Shown here in pieces: positions 18,531 through 63,100 of a DNA stretch of 64,000 nucleotides (positions are counted from its first letter, which is position 1; every line of letters begins with the position of its first letter). The notes beneath the pieces were generated by a model. The model had not been told where the DNA came from. It ran no database searches and saw only the letters and a list, made by a program, of their open reading frames with translations. The stretch comes from Apostichopus japonicus (Eukaryota > Echinodermata > Holothuroidea > Aspidochirotida > Stichopodidae): positions 32,366,554 through 32,430,553 of the forward strand of contig NC_092562.1 of NCBI RefSeq assembly GCF_037975245.1, written 5' to 3'. The translations under genes and the position numbers were made by a program.

Positions 18531-18531
18531 A

Positions 18532-26600: not shown

Positions 26601-26960
26601 AAGGTTTCTTATCTAGTGAAAAGTTACAAAAGCGATTAGGTATAAAATATAGCAACATTAATTTTCTCAGGTGAAAACAAGTACAGGATATTTATTCTCT
26701 AAAAAACAAGAAAAACAAGAAAACATCATTTGAGCAAGCTTGAATTCTCCAATTTGGTATTTTAGTTTTTGACAAAGAAAATTTAAGACAAATTGGTTCC
26801 AAAGAAGGAATACACAAAGCCTACTTATTACTCTCATTACATTTGATTAGCTTCTTATATTATTAAACTGTTTGAACATTTCAACATTAATAATGCTATA
26901 GAAACTATGACTTGGGAAAAACACACCAGTGAAATATTATTACTATGGTAGCTCCAAGAT

Positions 26961-29916: not shown

Positions 29917-29922
29917 TGCTGA

Positions 29923-30111
29923 CTAAAGTGACTTTCCATCTTGACTGATCGTTGGGATAACAAAGCCTTGCAAGAATGTCTTCATATTGACAGTATCAAT
30001 ATCCGCTTCCATCAGCTTAGCAACCACTGATCTGTACCATGTCAGCTGCTTCTCTGCACCGGCCTGGTCTACACGTGGGATTGGTTTATTCTCTTTAATA
30101 AGTTCAGTTAC
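29923..30111 (-). CDS. MSH5: MSH5 terminal exon with stop codon
   Basis: 189 bases from a TTTTTAAAG acceptor to a TAG stop at 29925-29923. It begins [14 protein letters not shown] and ends [15 protein letters not shown], matching the lysine-rich linker and the C-terminal tail of MSH5. Only six bases separate the stop from the 81-bp tandem array at 27001-29916, so that array forms the start of the 3' untranslated region unless transcription ends earlier. A minus-strand AATAAA near 26685 could be a polyadenylation signal. Confidence 0.9.
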   Translation of the reverse strand, partial: VTELIKENKPIPRVDQAGAEKQLTWYRSVVAKLMEADIDTVNMKTFLQGFVIPTISQDGKSL

Positions 30112-33100
30112 CTTTAAAAATAGAAGAAGAGGAGCTGACAATTGTACAGCAAAAACCAATTTTCCAACAATGTTGCGTAGCAAACAAGTTGAAACAGACT
30201 TCTTAATACCCCATTAACTATATATTTGGCTCAATTATGTAGTGTTCTATTATGGACTGATCAAGTTTGTCAATATTCCACAGTTATATTGTAGTGTGTC
30301 TCTATGAACAAACACAATTGTTAACAGGTAATAGCCCATTCAGCTATATTCCACAGTTATCATGTAGTGTGTCTGTATGAACAAGCACACTAGTTAACAG
30401 GTAATAGCCCATTCAGCTATATTCCGGTGTGCCTCTATAACAAACACAATTAAAAACAGGTATTAGCCCATTCAGCTGTATTCCAGTAATATTGTAGTGT
30501 GTCACTATGAACAAGCACATTTGTTAATAGGTAATCCCAGCAGGAATATTTCTGGCGATATTCTATATACACGTCAGCAAATAAATGTTATGTTTGTATT
30601 CAGTATTTCTGTATTTATAATGGTTTATGTGTCTCACATATTCTTCTTAAACAGACAGTTAAAATCAAAGATCTCAAATGACCTGTTGACCACGGTCAAT
30701 AATTTCATCTGGAAGTCCTGCCATAGATGAAATATGGCTAGCATAGCTGTGGTCCGTCTGGCCATGAATTAACTGGTATAGAAAGACCATCTCATCACCA
30801 TTCGGAATAACTTCCATGGTCTGTAAAAAGGAAATGAGTAAAATGAAAAGGTTACTGACAAAATATCTCTAATCAAGATATTATTCACTGCCTTATAAGC
30901 TTCATATACTGGGAGACTAAAGCACTCATATTACTTGTAGAGCATATGAGCATTCATTTGTGAGTAATATGAAGACCTTATGGATAATGATACACACACT
31001 AGTAGAGCATATGAGCATTCATTTGTGAGTAATATGAAGACCTTATGGATCATGATACACACTAGTAGAGCATATGAGCATTCATTTGTGAGTAATATGA
31101 AGACCTTATGAATCATGATACACACTAGTAGAGCATATGAGCATTCATTTGTGAGTAATATGAAGACCTTATGGATCATGATACACACACTAGTAGAGCA
31201 TATGAGCATTCATTTGTGAGTAATATGAAGACCTTATGGATCATGATACACACACTAGTAGAGCATATGAGCATTCATTTGTGAGTAATATGAAGACCTT
31301 ATGGATCATGATACACACTAGTAGAGCATATGAGCATTCATTTGTGAGTAATATGAAGACCTTATGGATCATGATACACACACTAGTAGAGCATATGAGC
31401 ATTCATTTGCGAGTAATATGAAGACCTTATGGATCATGATACACACACTAGTAGAGCATATGAGCATTCATTTGTGAGTAATATGAAGACCTTATGGATC
31501 ATGATACACACACTAGTAGAGCATATGAGCATTCATTTGTGAGTAATATGAAGACCTTATGGATCATGATACACACTAGTAGAGCATATGAGCATTCATT
31601 TGTGAGTAATATGAAGACCTTATGGATCATGATACACACACTAGTAGAGCATATGAGCATTCATTTGCGAGTAATATGAAGACCTTATGGATCATGATAC
31701 ACACACTAGTAGAGCATATGAGCATTCATTTGTGAGTAATATGAAGACCTTATGGATCATGATACACACACTAGTAGAGCATATGAGCATTCATTTGTGA
31801 GTAATATGAAGACCTTATGGATCATGATACACACACTAGTAGAGCATATGAGCATTCATTTGTGAGTAATATGAAGACCTTATGGATCATGGTACACACA
31901 CTAGTAGAGCATATGAGCATTCATTTGTGAGTAATATGAAGACCTTATGGATCATGATACACACACTAGTAGAGCATATGAGCATTCATTTGTGAGTAAT
32001 ATGAAGACCTTATGGATCATGATACACACACTAGTAGAGCATATGAGCATTCATTTGTGAGTAATATGAAGACCTTATGGATCATGATACACACACTAGT
32101 AGAGCATATGAGCATTCATTTGTGAGTAATATGAAGACCTTATGGATCATGATACACACACTAGTAGAGCATATGAGCATTCATTTGTGAGTAATATGAA
32201 GACCTTATGGATCATGATACACACTAGTAGAGCATATGAGCATTCATTTGTGAGTAATATGAAGACCTTATGGATCATGATACACACACTAGTAGAGCAT
32301 ATGAGCATTCATTTGCGAGTAATATGAAGACCTTATGGATCATGATACACACACTAGTAGAGCATATGAGCATTCATTTGTGAGTAATATGAAGACCTTA
32401 TGGATCATGATACACACTAGTAGAGCATATGAGCATTCATTTGTGAGTAATATGAAGACCTTATGGATCATGATACACACACTAGTAGAGCATATGAGCA
32501 TTCATTTGTGAGTAATATGAAGACCTTATGGATCATGATACACACACTAGTAGAGCATATGAGCATTCATTTGTGAGTAATATGAAGACCTTATGGATCA
32601 TGATACACACACTAGTAGAGCATATGAGCATTCATTTGTGAGCAATATGAAGACCTTATGAATCATGATACACACACTAGTAGAGCATATGAGCATTCAT
32701 TTGTGAGTAATATGAAGACCTTATGGATCATGATACACACTAGTAGAGCATATGAGCATTCATTTGTGAGTAATATGAAGACCTTATGAATCATGATACA
32801 CACACTAGTAGAGCATATGAGCATTCATTTGTGAGTAATATGAAGACCTTATGGATCATGATACACACACTAGTAGAGCATATGAGCATTCATTTGTGAG
32901 TAATATGAAGACCTTATGGATCATGATACACACACTAGTAGAGCATATGAGCATTCATTTGTGAGTAATATGAAGACCTTATGGATCATGATACACACAC
33001 TAGTAGAGCATATGAGCATTCATTTGTGAGTAATATGAAGACCTTATGGATCATGATACACACACTAGTAGAGCATATGAGCATTCATTTGTGAGTAATA

Positions 33101-36100
33101 TGAAGACCTTATGGATCATGATACACACTAGTAGAGCATATGAGCATTCATTTGCGAGTAATATGAAGACCTTATGGATCATGATACACACACTAGTAGA
33201 GCATATGAGCATTCATTTGCGAGTAATATGAAGACCTTATGGATCATGATACACACACTAGTAGAGCATATGAGCATTCATTTGTGAGTAATATGAAGAC
33301 CTTATGGATCATGATACACACTAGTAGAGCATATGAGCATTCATTTGTGAGTAATATGAAGACCTTATGGATCATGATACACACACTAGTAGAGCATATG
33401 AGCATTCATTTGTGAGTAATATGAAGACCTTATGGATCATGATACACACACTAGTAGAGCATATGAGCATTCATTTGTGAGTAATATGAAGACCTTATGG
33501 ATCATGATACACACACTAGTAGAGCATATGAGCATTCATTTGTGAGCAATATGAAGACCTTATGAATCATGATACACACACTAGTAGAGCATATGAGCAT
33601 TCATTTGTGAGTAATATGAAGACCTTATGGATCATGATACACACTAGTAGAGCATATGAGCATTCATTTGTGAGTAATATGAAGACCTTATGAATCATGA
33701 TACACACACTAGTAGAGCATATGAGCATTCATTTGTGAGTAATATGAAGACCTTATGGATCATGATACACACACTAGTAGAGCATATGAGCATTCATTTG
33801 TGAGTAATATGAAGACCTTATGGATCATGATACACACACTAGTAGAGCATATGAGCATTCATTTGTGAGTAATATGAAGACCTTATGGATCATGATACAC
33901 ACACTAGTAGAGCATATGAGCATTCATTTGTGAGTAATATGAAGACCTTATGAATCATGATACACACACTAGTAGAGCATATGAGCATTCATTTGTGAGT
34001 AATATGAAGACCTTATGAATCATGATACACACACTAGTAGAGCAACAGCTGAGGGTCCCAAATGACATGTGCAACATATACCACCCATGCAGCCTTGAGA
34101 AGCTAAACATCTTTCTCATAGTTTAACTACCAAAGTTACCCACCCAGTAGAATATTTGCCATATAAGAAACATTGACACCAGCATTCTAAACAATACCAA
34201 ATGGGCACTACTACCAACTGCAATATCAAAATAAAAAGAAACGAACTGTCTACTATTGATGAAAGTCCCATACATATGAACTAACTTTGAGAGAGTGCTA
34301 TGACACTTCTTGTCAAGAGGGAGTCTAAATGAGTAAATAAGGTATAAACTAAAATACCATACAGCACTGCACATCTCTTTGGCTCAGAAACCAAATTGGC
34401 TAAGTTAGCGATTTCTTGCCACACTTTATATACTAAATTTAAAGGCACACTCTCAGCTAGGAAATTGCTAAAATCAAAAATCTTGTCTCAACGTATTCCC
34501 AGATTAAAAAATAAAAACAATGCTGCCCTCTTCTCACAGCGGCAACATATTCATTTCTTTAATATGGCATTCTCATCCTTAGCTATAAACAGCATATGCA
34601 AATGGGTACTGTTACCGCGAAGGGATCAGGTTTCAGAGATTCTAATCTGCCTCTCAGTGTTGCGTAACCTATAGGCACATTGTGTAATTGTACTGTGTGC
34701 TATTCGAGTTAACGCAATTTTTCGATTTGCTATATGGAACAGTGCATATTGTACTGCTGGGAAAACGCTATACCAGCTCGTAGGAGCAGATAGTTGTTAT
34801 GGAAAGAGTCATATGTATGATCTCGTGCTGCCGATTTTTGTTGGAGAAATTGCTGAAGATATAAAATGCGAATAGTTTCGTCGTGTAATTCTCTATAAAC
34901 ATGTGACTGAATGTGTGCTGCTAATGTACTGTTATTTGACGAAACGACTTGCTTCTGGCCTAACGTTCTTCAATACTTGAGTTCAAAATAAAATAAAACT
35001 GTGAGCAAACAGCTTATCCACTAGAGAGCCTGTGTAGAAAAAACACGCACATAATACAGACAGGTTAATGATTTCATTTCATTTCATTTCATTTATTTGT
35101 TTTTTCTCAATATACGGTACATTGTATGTCATACAAACGTTTACAGATATGAAATTGAGTATAAAGAGAAAGGAAGTGATCTAAAAACCTGAAAGGCTTA
35201 TCGAGTAGAGCCACTCCCTAAAGAAGGAAAATAATTAAGTTATCAGAGTTAACGATATAAACAAACAAAGATTTCTAAAAAGTATTATGGATCAATAATC
35301 ACTTATGTAAACCTCGCTTAATTGACTTTTAAAGGAACGTGGTGACTGAGAATCATTTTGTATATGATCATGATGATTAAGTAGATAATTCCAGCAAGTG
35401 TTTGCCCGATAACGTATACTCTGTTTACCCAGGTTACTATGGGGAAAAAGTCTATGTATGTGACCAGCCTGTCTTGTATTATAATCATGGATTTCCCTAT
35501 TAACAGTGAATAAATTTTTACATGTGGGCGGATTATACCCATTAATAGAGCGATAAGCGAATGTAGCAAGATGAACTTTCACAAGGTCCGGTAATTTCAG
35601 TAGCTTAAGTGAGGCAAATAATTTACTAGTATGATCGTTATAGTCGGCAGAAGATATATGTCGAATAGCCCTTTTTTGAAGTACAAAAAGTTTCTTAATG
35701 TTATAAGCAGCCGTGCCAGACCAAACTGTAATGCAATAAGTAAGGTGAGGATAAATTAAAGTAAAATATAAAGAACGAAGAATATGTTTTGGTAAGTAGT
35801 GCTTCAATTTGGAAAGAATCCCAACGCCACGAGAAATATTTGTTGATATTGTATTTATGTGATCACGCCATGTCAGACCAGAATCAATAGTTACCCCTAG
35901 AAAAGTGGTAAAACACACTTTTTTTAGACTACTACCATGCATCTGTATGTCAGACAGAATATTCCTATTCCTACCTTCATTGAAAACAACATATTTTGTC
36001 TTACCTACATTTAAAGAAAGTTTGTTAGCTGAATACCAAGCATGAAATTCATCAAGCACATGACAAACTCTAGCCCTCATTTCCACAGGATCCAAGCCAG

Positions 36101-39100
36101 AGAAAAAAATATTTGGATCATCAGCGAATGATATGATAGTACAATTATCTGACACATGACAAATATCATTTACATATATTATAAAAAGCAAGGGCCCCAA
36201 TATAGATCCTTGTGGAACCCCACAAACAACATTCATGCAATCAGAATCCGTATGAAGACAATTTGTAAATTGTTTGCTGTTTGATAAATAGCTTCTAATC
36301 CAGTCTAGTCCTGTGCCTCTTATGCCATAATGTGACAATTTCATAAACAAAATACGGTGATCAATTGTATCAAACGCTTTGGACAAGTCCAAGAATACAC
36401 CGACGGAAGTCATTTTATTATCTATGGCATCATACAATACCTCCAAGGCCTCAGTCAAAGCAAGTTCGGTTGAGTGTCCTGGCCGATACCCATATTGACT
36501 TTTGAACATAATATCATGTTTACTGATAAAATTATAAATACGATTATGAACTATTCTTTCAAAGATTTTAGAGAAGCCTGTTAGTACAGAAACTGGGCGA
36601 TAATTACCTATAACATCATGATCCCCTTCTTTATAAACAGGGATAACTTTCGCAATTTTTATATGATCTGGGACAGTACCAGTTGCTAAGGATAAATTTA
36701 TAATGTGAGTAAGAGGGTGAACAACGTTATGTAACACCTTTCTTAGTATTGAAGGCTTTATGCCATCGAAGCCGGCAGATTTATCTGGTTTCAAACAAGC
36801 AAGTGCAACTTTAAATACTTCACTCTCATTTGCAGGAGACATATAAAGGGTTGAAGGATTTGAATTTCTTAGGTAATGATTTGGATTAGTGTCACTATGA
36901 ATATCTGACGCTAAGTTGGGCCCAACATTTATAAAGAAATCATTGAATGCGTTTGTAATCTGCTTAGGATCATTGGTTTTACCGTTGCTGACTTTCATCG
37001 TGTCGGGAATAGACGACTTACTTTTTCTATTATGTAATACATCATTGATTATTGCCCAAGTACGTTTAGAATTGCCACTGCAACTATTGAACTTATCAGA
37101 ATAATACCGAGTTTTCGAAATACGAATAATGTGGGTCAATTTATTAAGTACGAAACTTGTCGGAATTGTCCATATTGGGGTTTTTCAACATCTTGCGATA
37201 GAGTTTATTTTTACGTTTGATTGATTGTAAAATACCAGTCGTTATCCAAGGATGACGCTTTTTACGACGCTTTGAGTTACTGATATAAATATATGGAAAG
37301 CATTCATCATAAATATTTTGAAAAACTGTAATGAAATTGTAATAAGCTACGTTCACGTCCTCAATAGAACATATGAAATTCCAGTCGGTATTATGTATTA
37401 AATTATTAAAATACGTAGTATTCTTGTCGGAATAGTTCCTAGCGTAGTAGACAGAATCAGATTTACTCTGTTCTACTGAAGTTTGAATGAAAACGGGGAA
37501 GTGGTCACTTATATTCGTTAGTAGTATGCCAGGCGTGATATCAGTAATATTGTTGGTGAATATATTGTCAATAAGTGAGGCCACGGTTCCACTTACTCGA
37601 GTAGGCTTGGAAATTGTAGGGAAAAAATTGTTTGAAAACACAGTGTTTATGAAGTCAGAAGTTCCATTTTTTAGTAAATCAATATTAAAATCCCCCATGA
37701 TATAACCATGTTTGTTCTCACTAGATATTAAATTGAGTATAATATTTATATATTCATTGAATGTAGATGTCAAACCCTGTGGAGGTCTATAGACTACTCC
37801 AACGATTATATTATTCTTATTCATTGCTATTTCTATGAAAATGCTTTCTATTGAAAAAAGATATGTCAGTCCTTTTTACAAACGTATAATTATTTGATAT
37901 AAAAAGACCAACACCACCACCTCTCATGCTATCCCTGTGACTTTCTATAAAAGTATATTGATCTATTTGTAACAAAGGTGATATTTGGTCACTTAACCAC
38001 GTCTCACTGAAGCCAATTATTGAGAACTCATGATTAAGAAGGGAAAGAAAGTCAATTATTGAGTTGAAGTTTTTGTTTAGGCTACGACTGTTTACATGAA
38101 ACAGAGAGAATACATGAGGTTTACCAGTGAGTTGATTGAAGGAACCAATGTCAAAGTAGCGACAAAGACTAACAGGAACTTGTGAGTTTAGGTTGTGTGA
38201 GTCATAAAAATCATTATTCATGAACTGCGGACTTGGTCCATGTAGTGCCTCCAAAAAATCATTGTGATTTGAAAGATTTTGAAAGGGCAAACCAGAGTCA
38301 CAAGAATCACAAATCCAAGAATTACACCTATTACTGATACACCACGTATGACGAAAAGTACCACAATTTTCACATTTAACCTTATTATACGTTTCACTTA
38401 TGATAAGATTACAATTTTCACAAACTAACATCACCTGTTTTCGATCAGAGTGATAAAAAAGGAAGACAAAAAGTACAAAAATATGTAAATGTATACATCC
38501 TTTGGATTAATTATTGATTTACAGTGTCATTTTCTAGTGCCAAAGAGCTAGAGACGCTTCAAGTCATTCAGCCCCCAGATTCGTTTCGTAAACTCGGTGT
38601 TGTTCTTGCTTACCAGTGCGATGACTTTGCCATCGTGTGACCAGGCTGCTTTGACCAGGGTGGTGTTTTTCGTCGCCTGTAGTAGCTCTTGGTTCGCCTT
38701 CGTTAGGTCCTCCTGTATTACAAGGCGGGTGCCCTTCAATTTCCGCCTGTTCTTTATGCATAGTTCTCTGGTTTTGTAGTTCTGGAATTTGACGATTATT
38801 GCCCTGGGTTTACCCGGCTCTTTCTTACCGATCCGATGCGACCTATCAATGTCTGTTGGATTCAGGTTGAGTCCCAGATGCTGTGATGCGAGGTCCATCA
38901 TGATGACGTCAGAATTTTCGTTCGGCTTCTCCTCCACACCAAACACACGAATGCAGTTTCTTCGGGAGTACTGTTCCAGCTGGTTCAATTGGTTGGTTGA
39001 GTTGTTGAGTTTGTCTGTCAATTCCGAGATCTCGTCCTGCATGGCTTTCAGTTCTGAAGAAGTTTTCTCGGCTTCCACTTCGATGTCATGTATTTTGCCA

Positions 39101-42100
39101 GAATTTATCTCGATCTGCTTCAAAAACTTATCCAGTTTTTTATCCAGAGCTCAATCAATACAAGCTTGCAGCTTTAGCTCGAAATCTTGGCTTGCGATTA
39201 CTTTTGTAACCACTTGAGTGACAATCTCTGAGATTTCCTTTTCTTTCGTGTTGGAGCGTGTAGACATTGTTAGGAATCACCGGACCGATTTATGTCGATA
39301 ACTGTCCCACAGGACTCTGAGCGATGATAATAAGTCCAACGGCTTCGATTGACGGCCTGTAGGATTCTATAGTTTGGAGCTTTGGGCCGAGGTACAGTAG
39401 TAGCAAAACACCGTAAGCTTAGGCTATGTTAGGATAACTTTTTCACTTCACCATTCGTTGAGCAAATTTTCTGATGCAGTTCTGCAGCTCAAAATAGCCA
39501 GAAAATGATCGGATTTTCAGTTAGGTCTTCCAAAGGCTCTATATAAGGGAGGATTCACATGATTTACCTTCCTCTTGATTGTGAGCTGATGAAAATTAGC
39601 GAAAATTTGCGAGTCTTATAATGTGTCGTTAAGTCCGTCCTTCAACTAAGCCATTATGAGCATGGTGAACACAAAGAGATAGATGTAAGGGGATTAGTAG
39701 ACAAGGGATGGAGAGAAGAATGAAAGATAAAAACCAACAGGGGAAGAGGAGAGGTAGGAGATAAACAGTGGAGGGACAAAGAGAGGATTAAGGGAAGGGG
39801 TAGGAATAAACTGGAGGACAAAGACAGAAAAGTGTGGAGAAAAAAAAGTGTGGAGAAAAAAAGGGGTGGAAAAAGCTATGAGAAAAGGAGTAATGGGGGA
39901 GGGGGGCAAGGGGAGAAGGAATGAAGAAAAGTTAGTCATGTCCTTCCTGAATGTTGAACCCATGAGGTTGAATGGTGCGAAGGCGTAGCATCCACAACCT
40001 CCTACTGCTGATTCGCACTAGCTCAGGACGGCTACCTAAGGATTCAATCCCCTGGGCCTATAGAGACATGTCGTTAATGGTATGGTTGCATAGCTCCCAA
40101 CTGAGAAGGCAAATGCTGGTCCATGCCACGAATTGCCGTCCTGGGGGAGGGGTATATGGGGGGGTGTCTCCCTCCCCTTTTGATTTTTTTTTTTTAATCC
40201 TGGTGATGCCTACATGTAAAATGGTGGCACCTATAAAGGCTTTTGTCACCCAAAATTTTCTGAGAAATATGCATTTTGTTGTGTGTAACATCAATAAATT
40301 GAATAGTAGGTGATAATTCATTCTTGCCCGTGGCATGAAAATGTTCGCTGCTCGCCCCAATGAAATGAAATATAGCCTAATTTGAGGTTCAAATGATGAT
40401 GTAAAGGAGGTTTTATACTCTATTATGCTAAATGCTAAAGAAATGATGGTGGCTAAGTCCAAATTTGATGCAATTTTATGTATACTTGTCAATTACAATG
40501 CAGGTTTTTGGGATGCTTGCGTGGGTCAGGGGCTTTGGGTGTTAGAATGCGGGTCCAACCCACGAATTGTGGGTCAGTTGGGAGCTCTGTGGTTGGGAAG
40601 GTTAAAGTGTTCTCCAAAAAAACCCAAAAGATGAATGACCTTCGGCACAGGGGTAAACTGGACTCCTCCAGCTGCCTTTACTACATTTTACTGCATTACT
40701 ACAAACATATGGTGGCTTCCACGCCAACTCTCAACCAGAGTATGCTGTATTGGCCCCAAATAAACCAGATATTCAAATATGGTTACCTTTGGTCAAAGTT
40801 TTGAAACTAATTTTATTACCACCTTCCTCCACCAATTTACCTCCACCAGTTTACCTCACTGGGGCATTCAGGCATCTTATGCTTTCAATTAGAATGCCTT
40901 AGAACAATTTGGAATGTAAAGACCTCTAGGAACATATTAAATATTTTAGCAATTATAGCATGCTAAATTGGGGACAATACTACATAGCCCACCTTGAAAA
41001 TATCCTGTAACCTACTCTGGATAAACACTATCTAATATGGAAGAAATGCTTTGGTTAAAGTATGAATATGGTCACTTGAACATTAAGGAATGCAAGTGAG
41101 ATAGTGGTAAGTTTTCCCTGCTCATGGTTATTGTAGTTGAACTCAATGTATAGAACTGTACAGATGCAATCAATGTGTTAAAAATAAAAACATGTTACAA
41201 TACTGACTTACCTAACTTTAGAATAAGCAATACAAACAATAGTAGGGCAGTGTTCCAAATACGGAATGCAAGAACATATGCCCAAATAGGGCTAGGAGAC
41301 ACCATGCCTCCATTGTGGAACTTCTCCATGATTGCAGCTTTACATGCAAAAGAAACTTTGCCAAAACTTCAAAAGACCCTATAATGTCCCCTGCATTTCA
41401 AACATCTCCATCTGCCACTATCTCCATCTGCCACTGGGCCCGACTGGGGTTATCATGAGAGCACTGAATGAACTGTTTTATCACTACTAGCTGCAAGTTA
41501 GAGTACCTCTTCAACACTCTATGACATCACAATATATGTTATGTTAAATTGATCTCACACAATACAAAATAAAGACAAGTTATTCGTTACCAACAATAAA
41601 TAACCCAAGATCAATGTCACATTAGAACTACTGGTATGACTGAACAAACTACAGTAATTAAAAAGATCAGATATTGCTATCATGGAAAGCCAAATAGTGT
41701 ACAATCAAGTATGTAGTGAAACCAATATTCAATCATTTACTTATTTAATATGACACAGTTGTAACTTTGATGACATCAATTATGTAGTTTACTTACACTA
41801 TGAATGAACATTCAAATCAATGCTAAATACTACAGAAAGGAGAAGGATACATAACGCACTGAATGCAACAATCAATGTTTGACACCATGGAGAAGATAAA
41901 TTCTTATGATACATTGCACTAGCTTAGTAACTTCATTTTACTGAGACACCATGTTTGTTGTTGTCTATTATGGTACAGTTTGTTCAATTGTCTTGAAGCC
42001 TTGTGATATCTACATTCTGGATACTTGTTACTCCCATTGTCCACTCTTGTGTCCTTGATGTATGGTATTTAAATAAGCTGAGAAACTGCTTTGACATCAG

Positions 42101-48100: not shown

Positions 48101-51100
48101 TTTACACTTCCCCAAAATTTCCATAAATTAGAAGAAGAAAAAATGGTAGAATCACTTTGAAGGGGTAAAATAGGACAGTATATTTTTAAAGCTCCTATTT
48201 AGTTATGGTATTTATTATTTTAACACAGTACTCAGCTACCTCCAGAAAAATATACATAGTAGACGGGAAAATGTCGCTGTGTCGGGTGAGACTGCAATTT
48301 GTCTCACAAAAAAGTATAACAAATAACAAAGAATATGATAAACCTGTACTTTTAGGCTTGTAGGCACTCCCCCACCCCGCCCCCCACCATCCATGAAAAA
48401 GAACACGTTTCTTATATACACTCATGTCAGGGATGTCAAGGTATACAGTTGACTAGTTAGAAAAAATGTTTACTGCGGTTTTTCACTTCAGAGACTGCTA
48501 ATCTCCATGCATGCATGTCACCACCATTGTGAGCGGCGTTCCTTGTTAATAATTTTGGGCGATAGTGCAAAAAGCGTGGTAGCCCAGATGAGCTGCGCTT
48601 ACGGTGGTGTTACACAGAAATATTCGGGCATCATGATGCTAAATAAAGAAAATCATTAGGCCTATATTAATGTCAAAAAACAAATAACAGAGAATGCTCT
48701 CCACGGAATTGTCGGGCAAAAATATGAAAAAGATTCGGGCAAGCTACTGCATATTTATATATATTTTTTTTCTCCTCTTAGGCTGCCCGAATTTTTCAGG
48801 ACTTTTGCCCGAATTTCTTGTCCTCTGGAAATTTGGGGGGCAGTCTGCCCCCCCCCCCCGCCCGCCTCGTACGCTTATGCATGTGGACTTACATAGCATT
48901 AGAGGAAGGGGATGGAAGACTAACACGCATCGATGTTTCGGTAATGGTCCACATTGGTGGCTCGGTGCTAATTAGGCCATTTATTGGGTTTCTTGAGGCA
49001 GCTGTCATCAGAATCTGGGTTTTGTGCCAATCGATGACCGATAACAGTACGTGCATGTTGAATAGTTCCGAAATCTTCTCATACTCTGACTGTAATTTAT
49101 GAATAAAATTTATCGTACGCGTGATCAGTACAGTACAGTGCATATCATCATAGACGTACGTACGTACTACGTACGTTCGTATATCAGACGCACTCGATAC
49201 CCACGATACGAAACGGTCCTGGAGAAACAATTTCCACTCATCATATTTTAAGGCGATACAGTAGTGAGTAGTGAACAGGCACAGCCGCATGTTTGCAGGA
49301 ATTTCAGGATTCCCAATATTTTATATCTCTACCAGTAGTGGAAAATCATGTTTCGACAGTTTCGTGGCCATAAAAAAGTTGTTTTGTGGAATATTCAATG
49401 ACATATATTCATTTGACTCGAGGCAATATATGAATACCTGATACCTCGGCTCAGTACAAACGGAGCCAATCTTTTGATAGATTGTTGCGCTAGGTGGCAC
49501 TGAACATATTTTCAGCAGATATCGATATCGCGCAGCACAACAAGGTTCGTGGTGTATGGTCGCAATCGTCGCATCGACCATTGCCATGCAATGCTGTGTG
49601 ACCATTCTCATGATTACTACAGATATTGTATTATTCTTATTCTGCCAGATGCAGACGAGAAAATTGTGTAACTCTATTTCCCAAATTATTGAACAAAAAA
49701 TATTAGTGAATCGCACTGATGAGTGTTTTTTTATTTTTTTTTACAACATTTTTTTTTACAACATTCCCAGTGGGGGGCCAGCCGGTTTCATGGGGGGCCA
49801 CGGCCCCCCAGGCCCCCCGTAGCTACGCCACTGACCTCCACCAATAATGGAAGTATCTGAATACTTCCTAAGGGCGATCTTCGAACCAAGTGTGAGGTTC
49901 ATGTAAGCTAAGCTTGGTGATGAAATGAGCTTACCAACCAAGGAGTGACCTGCAAACACTATCACCATTGCAAACATTACCTACCTGACATCTCAGCTGG
50001 GTAGATGATGGTAGAAGCCCTTGTTTCAGAATGCTATGGAAGTGTGTTGATACAACCAGATGAGGGCAGTCATCTTCAAGAGCTAACCAGTGCTTCAATA
50101 TGGCAACTAAAAGGGACGTTCCATCTGCAACATCAGTGCCTTTACCAAATTCATCAATGATGACCAAAGATGAACTAGTAGCACTCTTAAGAGCTGTAGC
50201 CATCTAAAAACAATAAATGAAAATAGACATAGTCAAAAGGCATAGCAATATAATAGAATAAATAAATGACCTAGTAGTACTTTTAAGAACTCTAGCCCTC
50301 TAACAAACAATAAATGAAATAGACAGACTGTCATGAGGTGTAGTCATACTATAGAATAAATACATGACCTAGTAGTACTTCAATATCCCTTTAAGGGCAA
50401 ATACATGACCTAGTAGTACTTCAATATCCCTTTAAGGGCTTTAGAAAACACAGTTGTAGCATCAGATCATGGATGAAACAGATGACATGCATTCAATTGA
50501 AATAGCCTTCACTATCCTGCATAAAGAAGTAAGACTAAAGCACATAGGGAGCTGTAACTGTTAAATACTCCAGTATTCTATATTTACAGGACACATTTAA
50601 CTGACAGTTGGCAAGAAGATATTGTTGCTTTAACATTTTATTACCTGGTTTAAGTCAATCATGAAAGTCGATAAACCCACTGATATTGATTCCTGGGTGT
50701 GTATTCTAGTGTATATTCCATCCAACATACCAATGGTTGCTGATTCTGCAGGAACAAAGCTGCCAATGTGTGCCATGAATGAAATGAGTCCAACCTGCAG
50801 AAGATATCGGACGTAAAAAGGTCTGCTCTACATATTTGAGAAACAAAACAAAATTTCCCACTCTACCCCTTTCTCATTGCACAATTATCTAGCGAGCTGA
50901 CAAAGCAACAACAGGAGTGGGACCAGAGGCTTACTGATTTATTGCCAAACATGAAAATACCTAATGATAACTGCACACATTGTAAATTTAATAAGGTGGC
51001 ATGACGCATACAAGTTTACTATTGGAGATATCCGGATTGCAAAGTTTGCAGACTTTGACCTCTGCTAACCTCAAATCACCTTTGATTACAAAATACTATT

Positions 51101-54100
51101 GTAGTGTTGTATTCAATTGTGTGTAACTGCATATCAATCATGAAGTTTTATTGTGTTGGCCTTGAATGAAGAAAGAAAAAACTCTTATACTGAATAAGGT
51201 AAATCCATGCATACCACTATGAGCTCATTCAAGCTCTGTTTTTAATGTTATAGTGTTTACAAGTTTGCAAGGTCAACTAATATCTGTTGACCTTGAATAA
51301 CCTTTCATCAACATGGGAATTAACAGGAATCTTGTACTCAATAACTTGAATCCATGTATGAGGTATAAGGCACATCAAAGCTTTAATTTTGGAGTTATTA
51401 TGTTTAAAACACTTTTTGGCTACTGTTGACCTCAATGCCCTTTGACCTACACATAAAACAACAGGGTTTTTGGAATCAATAATGTGGATCCACATACCAA
51501 TTTTGATGTTCATCCACCATGTACTGTGTTTATTTACAACATTTTAAGAATTTTGACTTATGTTGACCTTAAATGACCTCTGAAATCTCCAATTTCACTA
51601 GGGTTTTATTTAAGCTTCACTTAATGAGTACTGTACAAAAATTTCAGACTCTGGCCTCTACTGACCCCAAAAATGACCTCTACAAAATTCAATAAGGTTC
51701 CTGTACTCACAAGTATGAACTTGATACAAGCTTCACTTTGTGGGTTACCATGTTTACATAGTTTTCAGACTTTGACCTCAAATGACCCTTGACCTCCACC
51801 AATTTCTTGCAGTTCTTGTAATAAAAAAGGTGTTTCTGCATACCAAGTATGAAAGTCATCCACAATTTACCTGTTTAGGTATCATGTTACAAGACACAGG
51901 GATGTAAGTGCAGCCAAAAAAAAAAACCGGAAAAATTTTCGGAGACCCCAGGTGAATGCCGTCCTAACACATCCTACTCCTAGCTCTGACTACTTACACA
52001 CTATCGTTACTGTATGTTAGGCTAGCTTAGAAGTATTAGCGCTAACACATCCCAGGCCTAGTTCTTACTACTTACACACTATCGTTATGTTAGGCTAGCT
52101 CAAAGTTACGAATACGTCGCAGCGAACTACGGAATAAAAAACAGTCTCACATTCGAATGCGATCACAAATATCGACTTTCATATGCGTATCCCGTAGATT
52201 TCCGCCGCTCACAAATATCACAAGCGTTAATTCCAAAACTTATGTCGAACACCAGCAGTTACGAAGATATTAATTAGCAGTCCAATCAAAACATGAATTA
52301 GGCAAGGTTTTTCAACGACAGAAATGAGCTATAGCGATTTGAAGTTCGCACGTACGCAACGATATTCACATGGCACAATGTTGTACAGTGCAATGCGATG
52401 ATGCGAAACTGGAAATAGTATTTTGAGTGATCGATGAGTGAAAATTGAAGTTAGCTTGCTGCAAACGGGCCAGGCATTTTTGCCGCGTTGTGTCTTTGAT
52501 ATTCGAACAATTTTGTGGAACTTTATTGGAATTAAAAAAAAAACGGATTTCCGTAAAAATACGGAAGACTTATTGGAATTTAAAAAAAAACCGGATTTCC
52601 GTAAAAATCCGGAAGACTTACATCCCTGAAGACAAGTCTATGTCACAAATACACATGATGTGGGGTGTGTGAGGTGTTGAAAACTTGGCTTGTTAAACAG
52701 TGCAGCTACTCAATCTGTGGACGAATCTTAGTGAGTAGGAGAAACCAATACTTTTTTGAGGAGCTCAATGTCATCTGAGGTCACCAGAGGTCAATGTGTG
52801 AATATATTGTAAACACAATAACTTTCATACATAGTAATTGGATGAACTTTATTGGGTAAAAGATGTATGTATCTGCAGACGTCAAAAGTCATTTGTGGTC
52901 AAAGCTTGAAAACATTGTAAACACAATAACTTCAACAGTAAAACTGCAAAGAACTTCATGCATTGTATGTAGGTTCCATTTAGTGGACAAAAACCAAGTC
53001 ATTTTATGTCTTCATCAAAGATCATTTAACGTCACAACTTGAAAATGTTTGTGCAATGTTACAATATTAAAGTGGCATTCTCATATCATAAGTGGTAAAG
53101 ACGTAATAACTGTTGGCTTTCTGGTGTCAGACTCTTGCCATTGGTATGGGAACCAGTCCATGTACATGGTATAATCAATACAACTAACTGCTGCTTACCT
53201 GTTTCAGGTATAGACTCTTGCAATTGGTATTGGAACCAGTCCATGTACATGGTATAATCAATACAACTAACTGTTGCCTACCTGTTTCAGGTATAGACTC
53301 TTGCCATTGGTATTGGAACCAGTCCATTTACATGGTATAATCAATACAACTAACTGCTGCCTACCTGTTTCAGGTATAGACTCTTGCCATTGGTATTGGA
53401 ACCAGTCCATGTACATGGTATAATCAATACAACTAACTGCTGCCTACCTGTTTCAGGTATAGACTCTTGCCATTAAAAGGTTAAGGTTAAGGTGGTAACA
53501 CTTGGTAAAGCACACATTACTGTAAAAACACTCAAAGGCGCTGAACAACAAAACAATTATAAAAACGAGTTCTTAAATAAATGAGTCTTTAACGCAGCTT
53601 TAAAAGTTCTGATGGTCTTCGAATTTCTTGTGTCGACGGGGAGAGCGTTCCAAAGTCTAGGGCCAGTGACGCTGAAAGAGCGGCCTGCGAAACATTTGCG
53701 GCGTGTGAAAGGAACCTTGAGAAGGATGCCCTTTGACGAGCGTGTTGAACGACCAGGTGTCTTAATTTCCAGCAACTCGGACAGATAAGCTGGTGTTGAA
53801 TTATGTATACACTTATAAACGAGGAGGAGGATCTTGTACTCGGCACGGACATTGACGGGGAGGATGTGCAGCTCCTTCAATGCTGCAAAGGCACTATCAT
53901 ATTTTGATCTGCCGAGAATAATTTTAGCCGTGTAATTTTGGATCCTTTGTAGGGGATGAAGTGTGGAGGCTGGGAGGTTGATAAAAAGACCATTGCAATA
54001 GTCCATATGAGAGAAAATCATGGCATTTGCAATTTTGAGACATGTCGACTTGTCCAAATATTTCCAGATCTTCTTCAGATTAAACATGGCGAGGGCTGAT

Positions 54101-57100
54101 GCACTAGCTTTCATGGAAATATGATGTTTGAGATTGAGGGTTTCATCCAAGTAAACACCTAGTAGCTTCACACTATCGGTACGACGGACGGGAGTGTCCA
54201 TTTACATGGTATAATCAATACAACTAACTGCTGCTTACCTGTTTCAGGTATAGACTCTTGCCATTGGTATTGGAACCAGTCCATTTACTTGGTATAATCA
54301 ATACAACTAACTGCTGCCTACCTGTTTCAGGTATAGACTCTTGCCATTGGTATTGGAACCAGTCCATTTACATGGTATAATCAATACAACTAACTGCTGC
54401 TTACCTGTTTCAGGTATAGACTCTTGCCATTGGTATTGGAACCAGTCCATTTACATGGTATAATCAATACAACTAACTGCTGCTTACCTGTTTCAGGTAT
54501 AGACTCTTGCCATTGGTATTGGAACCAGTCCATTTACATGGTATAATCAATACAACTAACTGCTGCTTACCTGTTTCAGGTATAGACTCTTGCCATTGGT
54601 ATTGGAACCAGTCCATTTACTTGGTATAATCAATACAACTAACTGCTGCTTACCTGTTTCAGGTATAGACTCTTGCCATTGGTATTGGAACCAGTCCATT
54701 TACATGGTATAATCAATACAACTAACTGCTGCTTACCTGTTTCAGGTATAGACTCTTGCCATTGGTATTGGAACCAGTCCATTTACATGGTATAATCAAT
54801 ACAACTAACTGCTGCTTACCTGTTTCAGGTATAGACTCTTGCCATTGGTATTGGAACCAGTCCATTTACTTGGTATAATCAATACAACTAACTGCTGCTT
54901 ACCTGTTTCAGGTATAGACTCTTGCCACTGGTATTGGAACCAGTCCATGTACATGGTATAATCAATACAACTAACTGCTGCCTACCTGTTTCAGGTATAG
55001 ACTCTTGCCATTGGTATTGGAACCAGTCCATGTACATGGTATAATCAATACAACTAACTGCTGCCTACCTGTTTCAGGTATAGACTCTTGCCGTTGGTAT
55101 TGGAACCAGTCCATGTACATGGTATAATCAATACAACTAACTGCTGCTTACCTGTTTCAGGTATAGACTCTTGCCACTGGTATTGGAACCAGTCCATGTA
55201 CATGGTATAATCAATACAACTAACTGCTGCCTACGTGTTTCAGGTATAGACTCTTGCCATTGGTATTGGAACCAGTCCATTTACTTGGTATAATCAATAC
55301 AACTAACTGCTGCTTACCTGTTTCAGGTATAGACTCTTGCCATTGGTATTGGAACCAGTCACTTTTTACACGATATAATCAAAACAGCTTACCTGTTTCA
55401 GGTAGACACTCTTGCCACTGGCATTGGGACCAGTCAGAAACTTCACCTTGCCCTCTTTGCTGTTAGATATAGTGTTGTTGGCGACAAAAGTGGCAACACA
55501 TACTTCCTGAAGGGGATGCCTACCACCATGAATCTCCAATGTTTTCTCCATTGTGAGGGTTGGGCAGATGTAGTTGTTCTCTCTGGCAGCAGCAGCGAAT
55601 GCAAGAAGGCTGACGTAGGAACAATTTTTTTTTTCTTTAAGTGATGACTGATAACCATTGACAACTCTCCCATTGCCAGTAGTTTCTTGTCACACTACAA
55701 AATTCAATGTTCAAGGAAGTCAAATGTTTTACTGCATTGCACCAGAAGACATCTTTCTTATATTGTTTGTTTGTACATTAGAGTCATCACACTTGCAAAA
55801 TCTACAGCAGTTTGATCATGGAGCTATTACCGATGATAGCTCCATGGTTTGATTAACCTTCAAAATCAAGTTTATCTTCAGTAGCAGGGTATGGTGATGA
55901 TTTCTGATCTCTAGAGCAGAAGTGCAGGAACCTTATTAAAAACTGATCAAAATATTACCTTTTATTCATGGAAAATTGGTGCAGCTATATTTTTACCTCC
56001 ATTACTGGCACAGACTCCCTCAGGTAAAAGTACCAGATTTATTAACTAGAAAGCCAAGTGGCTTGGTGATTACTTAACACATTTTACAGAAAGTGAGAAC
56101 ATTTATGTAAACTGTGCACAGACAGTTTTAAACTTGACAAGTTTCATCCTTAATAACCAAGTGTGAAGTTCATCCAATTTCTATCTTTGCAGTTATCATA
56201 TTTACAAGATTTCAATCTCTGTTAAAGTTTTCTTTGAGCTATCATGTACAGAAGGTTTCATACTTTGGTTTTCATACCCATGTTGACCTCAAATGATCTT
56301 TGATCTCTGCAAAAAACAATACGGTTCTTCTTCACTAAGGTGTATCAACAAACAAAGTATGCAGTTCATACAAACTTTGATTTTGGAGTTAATATGTGTA
56401 CAAAGTATTTAGAATTTGACCTCTCCCGACCTTGAATGACGTTTGAACTGAATAAAAGACACTGCAGTACTTTTACTTGCAAAGGTGGGTTTACATGCCA
56501 TACATTAAGGGCATCAAAGCTTTGTTTTTAAACTTTTAATCAACTATACAAATTTTCAGACTTTGGCCTATTTTGATCTCAAATGACATTTAACCACACA
56601 TAACAATATGGTTCTTCTAAGTACTCATGATGCTGCATCTATGTACACACAAGTATGAAGTTAAAACACCATGTACTTTTTGAGTTAGAGTTTACAAGGC
56701 AATGGGAAGCACTCTCCATCATCTTCTCATTCATTCTCTTATGCTTCTGGAAAGCAACGAACAATGCATTAATGCTTTGATAACCAAATCAATTAATTTT
56801 GTTAGGAACACTTGAAAAAGTTACCTCCTTTGGACATTCAAAAAGTTCCATATTTGATATCTGACCTACGATACACACAACATAGTTTTAATACTCATGA
56901 CAAGTCATCCTGATACTATGACTGGAGATCTAACTATAGCAGCTTTCACCTTTTCATCTCAGAGGTTAGCTCAGATCTGCTATATTGGGCCCCTTCATAA
57001 AGTGAAATACTTGTAAAAGTTGCTTAAAATCCCAGACACCACTTACCTGTTTTGGAAATTTGTTACCCATGCACTTACCTCATATACATATGCATTATAC

Positions 57101-60100
57101 TCTAATACTAAGCTCAATTTGGTTAAGTCTTTAAATGGGGTATGGCTACCATCTATCCAGGCCCTGACTCCTCCTTTCTCTTTAGGATCCAATTCTGTTA
57201 GCAAGGACCTACTAAGTGAAAAAGGTGAGAGTCAGTAAATATATTAACTAAGGCACAAGTGAGAAGGACAGGAGAACTTAGTACTAATGTACTAAGAATT
57301 TTGTAGGAGCTGTCTCAGCTGCCGCAAGGGTGCTGCTTCTTGCAGCTTAATTTCACCGTTTTTTTTACCTCGGTTAGTCATTTTTCGAGTTTTCATTAAC
57401 ATCGTGGATGTTGCCATTGGAGCCAAGACTTTGCTTGTTGTATTTCTTTGTGATTTCTCTTGTTTATTCCCACAACATATTGAAGTTTTTTATGTTGTGG
57501 TTTCGTCTTTTACTGTACCTGTACTGTACCTGTTTCACAATAACTGTACCTGCTTCGAAATTAATTTTCTGTACCTAGCCCACATACTGTTTCTCCCGTG
57601 TCGCTATGCACACCTGGATTTAAGCTTGGCTGATCATGAATGTGTGCTTCTGTACCACCGTTTCTATGACAATCCACGGAGACACTATTGTGTACAGTAG
57701 ATCTAAGCTACTGAAGTTAAACACAAAACCTGACAACTCTCTCCTTTGTGTCTTAAAGGAGAACTGATTACTACGCTTTCATGGTAAGCGATCCGGTTCT
57801 CATACAAACGTGATGACAATACTACTGTATCTGCCATAGCCAAAGGCCTATTAAACTATGTCTACTGAACTGACTATCAGTCAATAATAAAACAGCCACA
57901 ATTTATGATTTTGTTACAGTTCCCTAGACATAGCCATTTTCACAGAGATATGGTAACAGGAAAGTGACTCTGTAATTGAAAACGAGATAACACCCTCTGG
58001 ATTAAAGCTATCCTGTGTCTGTAGAAGCTCTCAAGGTGGTAATTGAACCATCTACTGTTCTTGACTCATTTGAAAGTCTGTGCATGCGTGTGTTGGAGGT
58101 GGGTTGTATTTTCAGGTTGTATTCTACTTACCGTCCTCCCCTATCTTGGAAAAAACTGTCTCACATTCAATTTCACTCTCTTCTTGAAAATATTTGCACA
58201 ACACAGGATACTAGGGTCAACTCTAGGCTGTTCTCTTTTCTCTATATACCTATTCGCTAGGAAACATTATTAGTTCTTATGATATTACCTATATATTGTA
58301 TGCTGATGATACACAACTTTATGTTGCCTTTGATCCAAAACATCTCAAATTAGCTGTATCTAAGATGGAGTCATGCCATTTAGGAAGTCAGACTATGGAT
58401 GTCCAATAACTATCTTAATTTAAACAATGAAAAAAACACGGAGGTAATTTTTTTCCAAAGTAGTTATAATGATGTATTGGGATCAGATCAGGTTCCTTTA
58501 AGATTTGGTGACAAGGTCATAAACTCTGTTCAGCTAGTCTGCAATCTCGGTGTATATATGGACACTCACCTTGCTATGGATCAGCAAGTTAACCACATGT
58601 AAGTTGACAATGTTTCATATTAGGCGGGTGGGTTAACTTAGGAAATATCTCCATAGGCCTGCGACTGAGAAACTTAATCATGCTGTAATGTCGAGTCGGC
58701 TTGATTATGGCAATTCTCTTCTTTTTGGTGTAGCAACATTAGATGAGATTGCAAAGGATCCAGAACACGGCTGCTCGAATAGTCTACAGGGTGAACAGGT
58801 TTACGCCCATCACTCCTATACTGGAAGAACTACACTGGTTACCAACAAGACTCTGTTTTTACTATAAAATCCTCATTGTAGTTTTTTGTGCCATTAAAAC
58901 TGGTACCCTAACCTACCTTAATGTTCTTTTACATCAGCAAGCTAAATGTAGACCAATAGGTTTGCATTATCAATTTCAACTTCAGGTTCCAATGTCACAT
59001 ACAAGATCTTTCGGTGACCGTAGCTTTTTGAATGCTGCACCACATTTATGGAACTCCCACCCGGTTGAAGTTAGGTCTTTAGATTCTATTATCCAATTCA
59101 AGCGCTGTCTTAAAACTTTTTTTCTCTCAACTCTATTAGTTTTTGCAAATTCAGCACCCGTAAAGCGCATTGAACAACTTTTGTTGGAGTCTCTGCTATA
59201 TAAGACTAGTTATTATTATTATGACAATTTCTATTTAATGAATATATTTACAGCTCACCTTATTGAGTTTGAGAATCATCTGTCTGATTCAGTAGATTCC
59301 TCTCCACACACTCCTGCCTTGAGACTGGCAGCAGCATTAGTGATTAATGGTCATATTAGTGGTGAAGCAGGTGAAGAGATAACTATGGCTTCTCACTTTG
59401 TAAAGAGATGTTCCGGAGTAGGTGAGGTGGGTGGATGTATATAAGGTAAGTGTGTGGTTAAAAAATTCCCAAAACAGGTAAGTGGTTTTGAGGAATATAT
59501 AAAACACACTTACTCCCCTCATATACATGTGCATTCAGACTAGCACCGTTGAAAAGAAGTGAGGGCGTTGTGGTCAAGTGGTTAAGGCAGTGGACTTATG
59601 ATCTAAGGATTACAGGTTCGAGCCCTGGCCATATCATTGTGTTGTGTCTTTGGGCAAGGTGCTTTATCTCCATTGCCTCTCTTCACCCAGGTGTATAAAT
59701 GGGGACTTGCAAGGTAACTTGTAAATATAGTTGCGTGCGCCGGTTTGTGGCTACACCCTATGGGAAAGTCCCCCGGGGAACATGTGGTTTTGGTGCACTG
59801 TGGTGCCCCAGGAGAGATTGATTGAATTGTGCACACTTTGGTGTGTAGGTGTGCCAAGTCACCAATGACCAGGGTTGTAAAGTCGTGTGAGAGGGCCTTG
59901 GCCCTGAACAAGACTGTAAACCTAAATAATAAATAAATAAAAAAGGTGGGTCCGGAATGCGATGTCCTGGAACACTGAGTACTGTTCTACTGAAGGAACC
60001 TTCTGCTAAAATTGTGTTTCTCAAGTAACAAGAGACAAAGGTAGAGTGAGTTTTCAATACCGCAGCCTTTATGATATCCTGCATTTGGACGAATAAGAAA

Positions 60101-63100
60101 CAAGACTGAAGGTGGCGTGTGCCCTAATGTCATAAGCTCTTATATGTTCTTTGTCTGTCAAGTGGGGCTTGATTAGGTTGACAATCCACCTGGACAGAGT
60201 CGGTTTACAGGCTGTGGTGTAGGGATGTCTTGGTGGGATGAAAAGAATTCTGACGTCCTGATTGGTTTTCTCTCGGTACCACTTTAGTACCATGACTGGA
60301 CACCAAAGCTTGTCTTTCATCATTGATGATCTAGAGGCTAGTGTCTGTAGGGTTATTCTAGTCATCGAGACAATAAGGGCATTTGTTGCCAAAGCAGTAA
60401 CTTGCTGCTTCCATGTGTCTCCGGATGGTTTCCACACTGAGAGACTTAGACTGTGAAGGTCCCTGAAGTCAAGTCTGCCTCGTACCTGGGTAAGAAGAAG
60501 GGGTCCTTCTTTTGGAAGTTTGACAGGAAGATCCACGACTAGACTCAACAGTAGCGGGAACCAAGTGTGGTTGGGTCCACATGGAGCTATCAGTATCATA
60601 TCCCCGTTTGTTCCTCGTATTGTCACCAGGACCTTGAGTAGGAGGCGACACAGAGGGAATGCATAGGTCAATAGGTTAGTCCATGGGAACGAGAGTGCAC
60701 CTGTTGCCCATGCTTCTGGGTGGAAGGGTCTTTAGCAGAACAAGGAGAGCTTCTTGTTGTCCGTGATTGCAAAAAGATGCCGGGATGGTTGCCCCAATGT
60801 TTGGAACATGTGATCTGCCAAGGCTTGAAAAAGAAACCCATCTCTTCTACTCTCTCTGGATAGAGCATCCCCTATCAGGTTCTGCTCACCTGATAGGTGA
60901 GAGATGCGAAGGTTGATGTTGTTGTTGTCGCACAGTAGAATGAGGACCCATGTTTTCTGAACTAATGAGTGAGACTATGTTCCCCCTTGGCAGTTGATCT
61001 AAGTCACTGTTGCTGAGTTGTCTGACTGTACCATGACTGTGTGGTTCCTGAGATCCTCCGCCCAGTGCCGAGTAGCCCTGAGGACAGCCTCTATTTCTAA
61101 GATGCAGATGTGGAGTTTCGACTTCCTTTCCTTCCAGGAGCCGGAGATGGTCTTGTTGCCCCACATGGCTCTCCAGTCTGTTAAGTATGCATCGGTGGAA
61201 AACAATGTTGTAACTTGTTACTCTTTGAACGGCCTGCCCGAGGCAACATTGTGCCGCTTGGTCCACCAGGTGAGAAATATCCGTTTTTCCAATGGAAGAG
61301 GGATCACTGTGTTCATCTGATCCTTGGGGAGGTTTTACCACTGCAGGAGGTGTAGCTGTAGTGGTTGTATCTGAAGTTTGCACCAGGGTAGAATTCCTAT
61401 GAAGCTCCCCATCAGGCCTATTATTTTGAGCCATGCTCTCGCCGTCGAACGGTGTTTGGATAGAAAGTCCATTGTTTGTATTCAGAGGTGTCTACCCTTT
61501 CGTCTGTTGGGAGGACCCAACACCTTCGTAGATCTAGTACTGCTCCTAGAATCTGAGACTTTGTGTTGCTGTTAGAGATGACTTGCTTTCGTTTATTATC
61601 CAGCCTAGGTCCTTTAAGAGGGAAACAGTCAAGTATGTGTCTCTCTTTGAGTCCTCTTCTGATCTTGAGTCGATCAGCCAGTCATCCAGGTAGGCAAAGA
61701 GTATTATGCCCTTACTTCACAGAAATGTATGGATTGGATTATCCTTTGAAGACCCTTGGTGCCATGGAAAGGCCAAATGGTAGGGCAACAAACTGGAAAT
61801 CCACTCTCATGTACTTCTGGTCCTCTCCCTTGATTGAGATGTGCAGGTATGCATCCTTTAGATATTATGAGGTGGCCCACATTCCTTTTCTAGGATCGGA
61901 GAAATTGATGAAAGTGTTTCCATCTAGAACGACTTTGGGTTTACGAACTGTTTTATGTTTAGTGTGGGCCTCCAAAGGCCTGCTCCTTAATTCGGAGTCA
62001 GGACGAATGATGGCCTGAACAGAATCTGATTGTCAAATGGGTGGACCTTTCTCATCACTAGCTTTGTCAAGAGGTCTGTGATCTCCGTCTCCAGTGTCTA
62101 CCATTGGTCCAAGTCCGAAGGAACTGTGGTGGCTTTCCAGTTGCCAGAAAATGGAGGGTTGGTGGTGAACTCTATGAAGTAGCCAAAGTTGACGACCAAT
62201 ACCTATGGACCTGTCTCTTAAAGGTCCCAATTGCAGGCGAACGGCATAAGGATACCCCGCAATGGAACCCCTAGCAGGATATGTGTTTAAAGTCAGCGTA
62301 TCTCAGAGTCCTGCATCTTTTGGCTTCTTGTTGGAGATGGGTATCAAATTGTCCACCAAAGAGATCTTCCCCTATAGTGGCAATTGGTGAAAATGTCGCT
62401 TCACCACCTGTGTGGGCCAGGACAGTGAGCACAGAACAGAGTCCCTCCGATCCATTGTCGCCTGGACGGTGATCTCGGAGAACTTGTCAAATATTAGTCT
62501 GGAGACTGGACCGAGCAGTGTCACAATCGCCCGTGTCATTTCTGGAGATATCCTTAGCTTGCTAAAAGGATCTGGAAAGGGCTTCGGCGAATAGTAGCAT
62601 AGCAGATGCATATCTCAGTCTAACTTATGTGGCTTTGTCAACATCTCGTATCACCTTGTTCATGTGATCCACTGGCCAACGGTTGTTGCTGAAACACAAG
62701 CTCGACGGCTTCCAGGTCTACCGGCTCACGGGACTTCTTCTGGTTGTCCGACATCTTGACTTGTCAGGTCACTGGTTGCCTGGCTCTCTGATCATCCGGT
62801 TCTCTGGCTACCTTACACAATAGGTAAACGAGTGGCCAGACTAGCCTCCGTAAGAGGGTAGCAATAGCAATAGACAACCTCTGCATGCAGCTTATACTGC
62901 CAGATCTGTGACTGTGATCTCAGTTCACTCTCGACAAGCACACAGGGCTCTCCCCTCTGGGCTTGACACTCTGGGTCAGCACCTTTCTGGCTCTTTGAGC
63001 TGCTTGCTCCCTTGCTGATGGTTAGGTTGCTTTTAGCCAATGCTTTGGTGTTGGCCTTTTCTTTCTGTGCTTGGAGGATTAGGAACTTTTCCTGTATCCA

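Follow-up and report, generated by a model that had tools for sequence, protein, structure and literature searches.

The intron that follows the Walker A exon of MSH5 in the sea cucumber Apostichopus japonicus contains 83-bp copies of the exon/donor/intron junction, arranged in tandem on the minus strand. Gene and array share this strand within the window, which is the whole 64-kb stretch of DNA that was analysed. The array is very probably a minisatellite of the "mirage" type described in amphioxus, in which an old duplication of the junction drifted and was then amplified, while the decoy donors stayed passive and the true donor kept working. Slippage or unequal exchange most likely gave rise to it, as a by-product that is tolerated.

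The junction array and its host gene

The window holds the 3' part of MSH5 and part of a GIPC1-like gene (7.3–9.7 kb). The earlier note had assigned the parent of the repeat to the P-loop exon of MSH5, and this assignment holds, as the 217-nt Walker A exon is 100% identical to residues 549–620 of P0003, annotated as "mutS protein homolog 5-like isoform X1 [Apostichopus japonicus]". MutS relatives are also present in the PDB. A tblastn search with P0003 places four later MSH5 exons (B, C, D and E) on the same strand at 98–100% identity, together with a partial upstream exon at the window edge. In P0003, a Q is joined to a V across the array-bearing intron, which corresponds to the use of the true donor. 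No other protein among the 113 compared reaches 100% identity over the exon. The database was, however, clustered at 90%, the P0003 cluster has five members and candidate length was limited, so this single match says little about donor use.

Table 1. Features of the MSH5 junction array and its surroundings (window coordinates).
Feature	Position	Strand	Basis and remarks
Parent junction: 43 nt exon end, true donor CAG/GTAAGC, 32 nt intron	55361..55435	(-)	+1 at 55392
Array block 1: 14 complete 83-bp units, u01–u14, a decoy donor in each	54199..55360	(-)	TRF, alignment
Array block 2: u15 (LINE-cut, donor kept), complete u16–u18, donor-less terminal fragment u19	53129..53475	(-)	TRF, alignment
LINE 3' end, apparently 5'-truncated, in MSH5 orientation	53475..54198 (ends approximate)	(-)	RT-type ORF; open frame 53560-54201
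Walker A exon, MSH5	55393..55609	(-)	Last 43 nt are the repeat parent; P0003 residues 549-620, 100%
Exon B, MSH5 (ends ...LNQ)	50645..50794	(-)	Joined to the true donor in P0003; tblastn; MutS_V 1.8e-15; junction contexts
Exon C, MSH5	49985..50203	(-)	100% to P0003 671-743; MutS_V 1.4e-11; parent of the acceptor-side duplication
Exon D, MSH5	30820-30683	(-)	P0003 tblastn
Exon E with stop, MSH5	30111-29923	(-)	P0003 tblastn; stop codon 29925-29923
Exon C acceptor and first 34 nt copied 96 bp upstream, TTAG intact, plus two acceptor-less exon-fragment copies in the intron	50170..50439	(-)	TRF 50170-50380, 50358-50439

TRF reports the 83-bp array as two blocks, 53129–53474 (4.2 copies) and 54196–55435 (15.0 copies), and the array takes up some 2.26 kb of an intron 4.6 kb long. 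It consists of 17 complete units, one unit cut by a LINE and one terminal fragment, with a donor in 18 of the 19. A complete unit comprises a 43-nt exon part, the donor and an intron part of about 40 nt. The exon-like starts follow an 83-bp period, with a first step of 75 bp and a step of 874 across the LINE. Unit u01 starts at 55360 and abuts the parent copy without a gap and in the same orientation. The 83-bp units proposed to adjoin the parent exon in its own orientation are thus confirmed, with 18 donor-bearing copies. They had been described as an exon end plus its donor; both are present, but the intron side is copied as well, and its roughly 40 nt align to the opening 32 nt of the authentic intron. 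The unit is therefore a copy of the junction, not merely of the exon and donor.

The match between parent and units is far above chance. An 80-nt query centred on the parent junction aligns to the units with 75.6% identity (E 4.8e-15), and a longer query that includes the start of u01 reaches E values down to 1e-36. A dispersed satellite family that picked up MSH5 sequence, or simply adjoins it, would be another source of such an array, and the window does contain other large arrays with similar unit lengths of 65–81 bp. The unit, however, includes sequence from either side of the MSH5 junction and lies directly against it, and the matches of the Walker A exon with its 80-nt flanks are confined to the array within the 64-kb window. 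A satellite origin is therefore highly improbable.

Divergence of the units and the likeness to mirages

The unit consensus and the parent are equal in 63 of 73 ungapped columns, with 12 further columns gapped. Five differences fall within the 43 nt of the exon part, and another five, with a net 8-bp indel, within the 30 aligned columns of the intron part. At the protein level, the consensus changes P to S, A to T, S to N and V to L but keeps GxxxxGKS, as had been noticed before; this is correct for the consensus, but u18 (53241) reads CKS instead of GKS. All four changed codons alter the amino acid, and all changes lie on the unit side, since the parent residues also occur at these positions in the MSH5 proteins Acanthaster P0007, Patiria P0009, Diadema P0044, P0004 and P0005. 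These results imply that the units are free of coding constraint. If the exon is held fixed, the 5/43 differences represent drift in the unit line alone. The rate in the intron part (5/30), where both sides are free to change, is above that of the exon part but short of double, and the numbers are small.

Among the 17 complete units, the pairwise difference averages 2.5% and is at most 6%, whereas each of them differs from the parent by 13.7–17.8%. This contrast suggests that the units seen today spread long after the seed duplication had taken place. The pattern is that of concerted evolution: the units are alike inside the array, the parent is divergent and the terminal unit is broken. Higher-order units of three (249 bp) would show as an excess at lag 3, but variant codes typed by hand from the unit alignment give none there (P = 0.21), and lag 2 gives P = 0.09. 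The three-unit structure is therefore rejected.

The LINE fragment parts the array into its two blocks. Its ORF shares 91% identity with A. japonicus P0117 and 84–94% with five other A. japonicus entries over 36–97% of the ORF length. The match P0140 is annotated as RNA-directed DNA polymerase from transposon X-element, and PF00078 is assigned to some of the matches; the ORF itself yields no Pfam family at E up to 0.1.

The earlier note regarded such an array as outside the standard repeat classes. However, the class has already been published, under the name of mirages, for the amphioxus genes Adh3, BflGb6 and BflGb9 (globins) and TnC, with similar repeats in lancelet PGBD5 (PMC3087553, PMC3902484). 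Mirages resemble minisatellites: an exon/intron boundary, donor or acceptor, is duplicated in tandem beside the real one. Many of the units retain AG/GT signals that could serve as cryptic sites; RT-PCR suggests regular splicing, the clusters are unstable in length, and their edges escape homogenisation (PMC3087553). Like these repeats, the MSH5 unit spans an exon/intron boundary and adjoins the authentic one in the same orientation, and the array is homogenised inside and divergent at its edges. Three of five mirage features are thereby found in MSH5 (boundary-spanning unit, adjoining position and concerted evolution), and the divergence of the units from the parent would fit the concerted evolution reported for mirages, from which the edges are excluded (PMC3087553). 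In contrast to the amphioxus cases, the MSH5 array is found in an echinoderm, is interrupted by a LINE, and shares its gene with an acceptor-side case. It also has more units than the two reported BflGb6 haplotypes (6 and 3). For the huntingtin gene of amphioxus, the part of the report available names tandem repeats but does not show junction copies (PMC2206037). Among the matches listed, drawn from the open-licence literature and hence outside most subscription journals, none describes an echinoderm mirage, and none of those listed for MSH5, sea cucumber and minisatellite has this locus in its title.

Tandem arrays are prone to assembly errors, and one amphioxus mirage was apparently misassembled in the draft genome (PMC3087553). 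The MSH5 array too could in principle contain units that were collapsed or expanded in assembly, or owe its existence to a junction that was duplicated there by mistake. The unit variants are nevertheless distinct and unevenly spread, and a LINE interrupts them, none of which a looping error would generate. Moreover, the array of about 2.3 kb is shorter than the mean HiFi read length of 14.7 kb given for the 2023 assembly (PMC10344927), the assumed source of the window. We regard an artefact as scarcely credible.

For a mirage-type minisatellite, the following history can be proposed. The A. japonicus MSH5 lineage would first have acquired a short direct duplication that took in the 3' end of the Walker A exon together with the beginning of its intron. 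The intron-side copies, being without coding constraint, would then have drifted, and we infer that slippage or unequal exchange amplified and homogenised the drifted copies into 18 donor-bearing units. A LINE would have split the array later. The first copy, which bears the whole exon, would have remained the working exon with its donor.

Decoy donors and their predicted products

Eleven of the 18 decoy donors are CAGGTAAGC, identical to the true 9-nt site, six are CAGGTAGGC, and one is CACGTAGGC, in which CAC/GT replaces CAG/GT. The claim that the intron contains many intact-looking decoy 5' splice sites therefore stands for 17 of the 18, which keep CAG/GTARGC, but not for the damaged one. 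The computed pairing with the U1 5' end amounts to -11.0 kcal/mol for CAGGTAAGC and for the true donor, -10.7 kcal/mol for CAGGTAGGC and -4.3 kcal/mol for CACGTAGGC; the values for four other MSH5 donors were set aside, as three of their positions were inexact. Since eleven decoys share both the sequence and the computed U1 pairing of the true donor, some use of decoys is plausible.

The decoys do not appear to be specially preserved, as two of the nine columns of the donor 9-mer vary among the complete units, compared with eight of 83 overall. An 18-nt block at the donor shows no difference between parent and consensus, although 10 of the 73 columns differ; its P value of 0.047 would apply to a block chosen beforehand, which it was not, and the longest clean run gives P = 0.27. 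Selection on the decoy donors is thus unsupported. The idea that the units serve as cassette exons is likewise weak. The best AG in two units has a pyrimidine share of 0.53–0.59, whereas five of six real acceptors range from 0.65 to 0.88; the sixth, that of the Walker A exon itself, has 0.53.

Readthrough past the true donor yields VSCFDYIV followed by a TAA at codon 9, and not, as previously proposed, an in-frame TAG after four codons. Every decoy-spliced product has this one truncated frame, which keeps the P-loop and loses the rest of the ATPase domain. Transcripts bearing such a stop should undergo decay. On the mirage-type reading, the decoys would be passive, and the exon-proximal donor would be chosen because it alone closes the normal 217-nt exon; a pre-mRNA spliced at a decoy would meet the TAA and be degraded. 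A tuning of MSH5 splicing by the decoys, as the earlier note suggested, is possible but unsupported, as P0003 uses the true donor and the donor bases are no better conserved than the other bases of the unit.

A working splice-donor minisatellite is known from the human gene IFI6 (G1P3, 6-16), the unit of which is 12 bp long. Two downstream repeat units of IFI6 serve as donors and give rise to different mRNAs (PMC4526556). MSH5 might accordingly use some of its decoys and produce alternative transcripts that scale with copy number. The mostly intact decoys, eleven of them identical to the true donor, would agree with this, and in both genes a tandem repeat at an exon end supplies several donor sites. 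Furthermore, the C. elegans minisatellite CeRep25B occurs more often than expected near multiple alternative splicing (PMC4039745), so a splicing role for minisatellites is not far-fetched in general. Use of the MSH5 decoys, however, would lead to a stop at codon 9 and hence to a null rather than a variant protein. The amphioxus Adh and TnC mirages are also said to yield no aberrant mRNAs (PMC3902484), and the use of the true donor in P0003 argues weakly in the same direction. A working splice-donor minisatellite of the IFI6 kind is therefore unlikely in MSH5.

The most far-reaching possibility is that the array acts as a copy-number-variable brake, where a larger number of decoy donors in an individual would lower the yield of productive MSH5 mRNA in its gonad, and where donor and acceptor mirages would act together. 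This is very unlikely. If true, the amount of a protein that makes meiotic crossovers would be governed by a minisatellite whose own length changes in meiosis, and a feedback loop would result.

Acceptor-side copies and a repeat-rich region

A second duplication, absent from the earlier note, affects the acceptor of exon C (Table 1). The copy matches at 82.8% over 116 nt (E 4e-25), and the exon-C fragment is present in four copies in all. If the duplicated acceptor were used, an in-frame TAG would directly precede the true exon C. A donor and an acceptor of MSH5 thus both carry tandem copies, and in both cases P0003 uses the copy that is joined to the full exon.

Tandem repeats in 19 stretches, merged by hand from TRF rows with the smallest left out, make up about 27% of the window. 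A junction-crossing copy on the same strand lies within 3 kb of two of 13 exon junctions (10 of MSH5 and three of GIPC, with the boundary positions 63956, 50797 and 7295 off by 1–3 nt), compared with 39 of 150 random positions, including those within arrays. An enrichment of duplications at junctions is therefore unsupported. As junctions are not preferred over random positions, the array is better seen as by-catch of a repeat-prone region, and with so much tandem repeat around it, no purpose is needed to explain it.

An 81-bp array (27000–29922, 36 copies, 98% matches) starts 6–9 nt beyond the MSH5 stop and occupies the 2.9 kb that follow. Neither AATAAA nor ATTAAA occurs in 26964–29922, and the first AATAAA is at 26696; judging from these motifs, the 3' UTR of MSH5 may consist of minisatellite, or the transcript may end otherwise. 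Open frames of 810–1006 codons run through this array (27 codons per unit) on both strands at 26911–29981, and a gene finder could mistake them for repeat proteins. Exon D is preceded, at a distance of about 112 nt, by the end of a 65-bp array (30933–34044, 48 copies). Between MSH5 and the GIPC1-like gene lies a 76-bp array (18531–23821, 71 copies), for which TRF rows at 21525, 22261 and 22997, spaced by 736 bp, suggest a higher-order repeat. By eye, minus-strand ORFs at 35295–39150, within an MSH5 intron, resemble a LINE that includes endonuclease and RT portions. Those at 60000–62500 are reminiscent of a DIRS-type retroelement, and two ORFs at 60–61 kb yield no Pfam family at E up to 0.1.

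Minisatellite expansion at exon boundaries is also documented for human segmental duplications, where internal tandem repeats at exon–intron boundaries can alter gene structure or make introns (PMC2812944). MSH5 resembles these cases in the expansion at a boundary; half of the human repeats, however, lie in the coding sequence of young primate paralogues, whereas the MSH5 copies are intronic and stand beside an unchanged exon.

The mirage-type array of MSH5 would extend this class of repeats from the cephalochordates to an echinoderm, and, with the acceptor-side copies, to both a donor and an acceptor of one gene. Within the open-licence literature, the two papers found to use the name deal, in their available parts, only with amphioxus (PMC3087553, PMC3902484). 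The eleven donors identical to the true one would provide a natural test of how the spliceosome chooses among equal 5' splice sites, as well as of the way in which new introns may originate from duplicated junctions.
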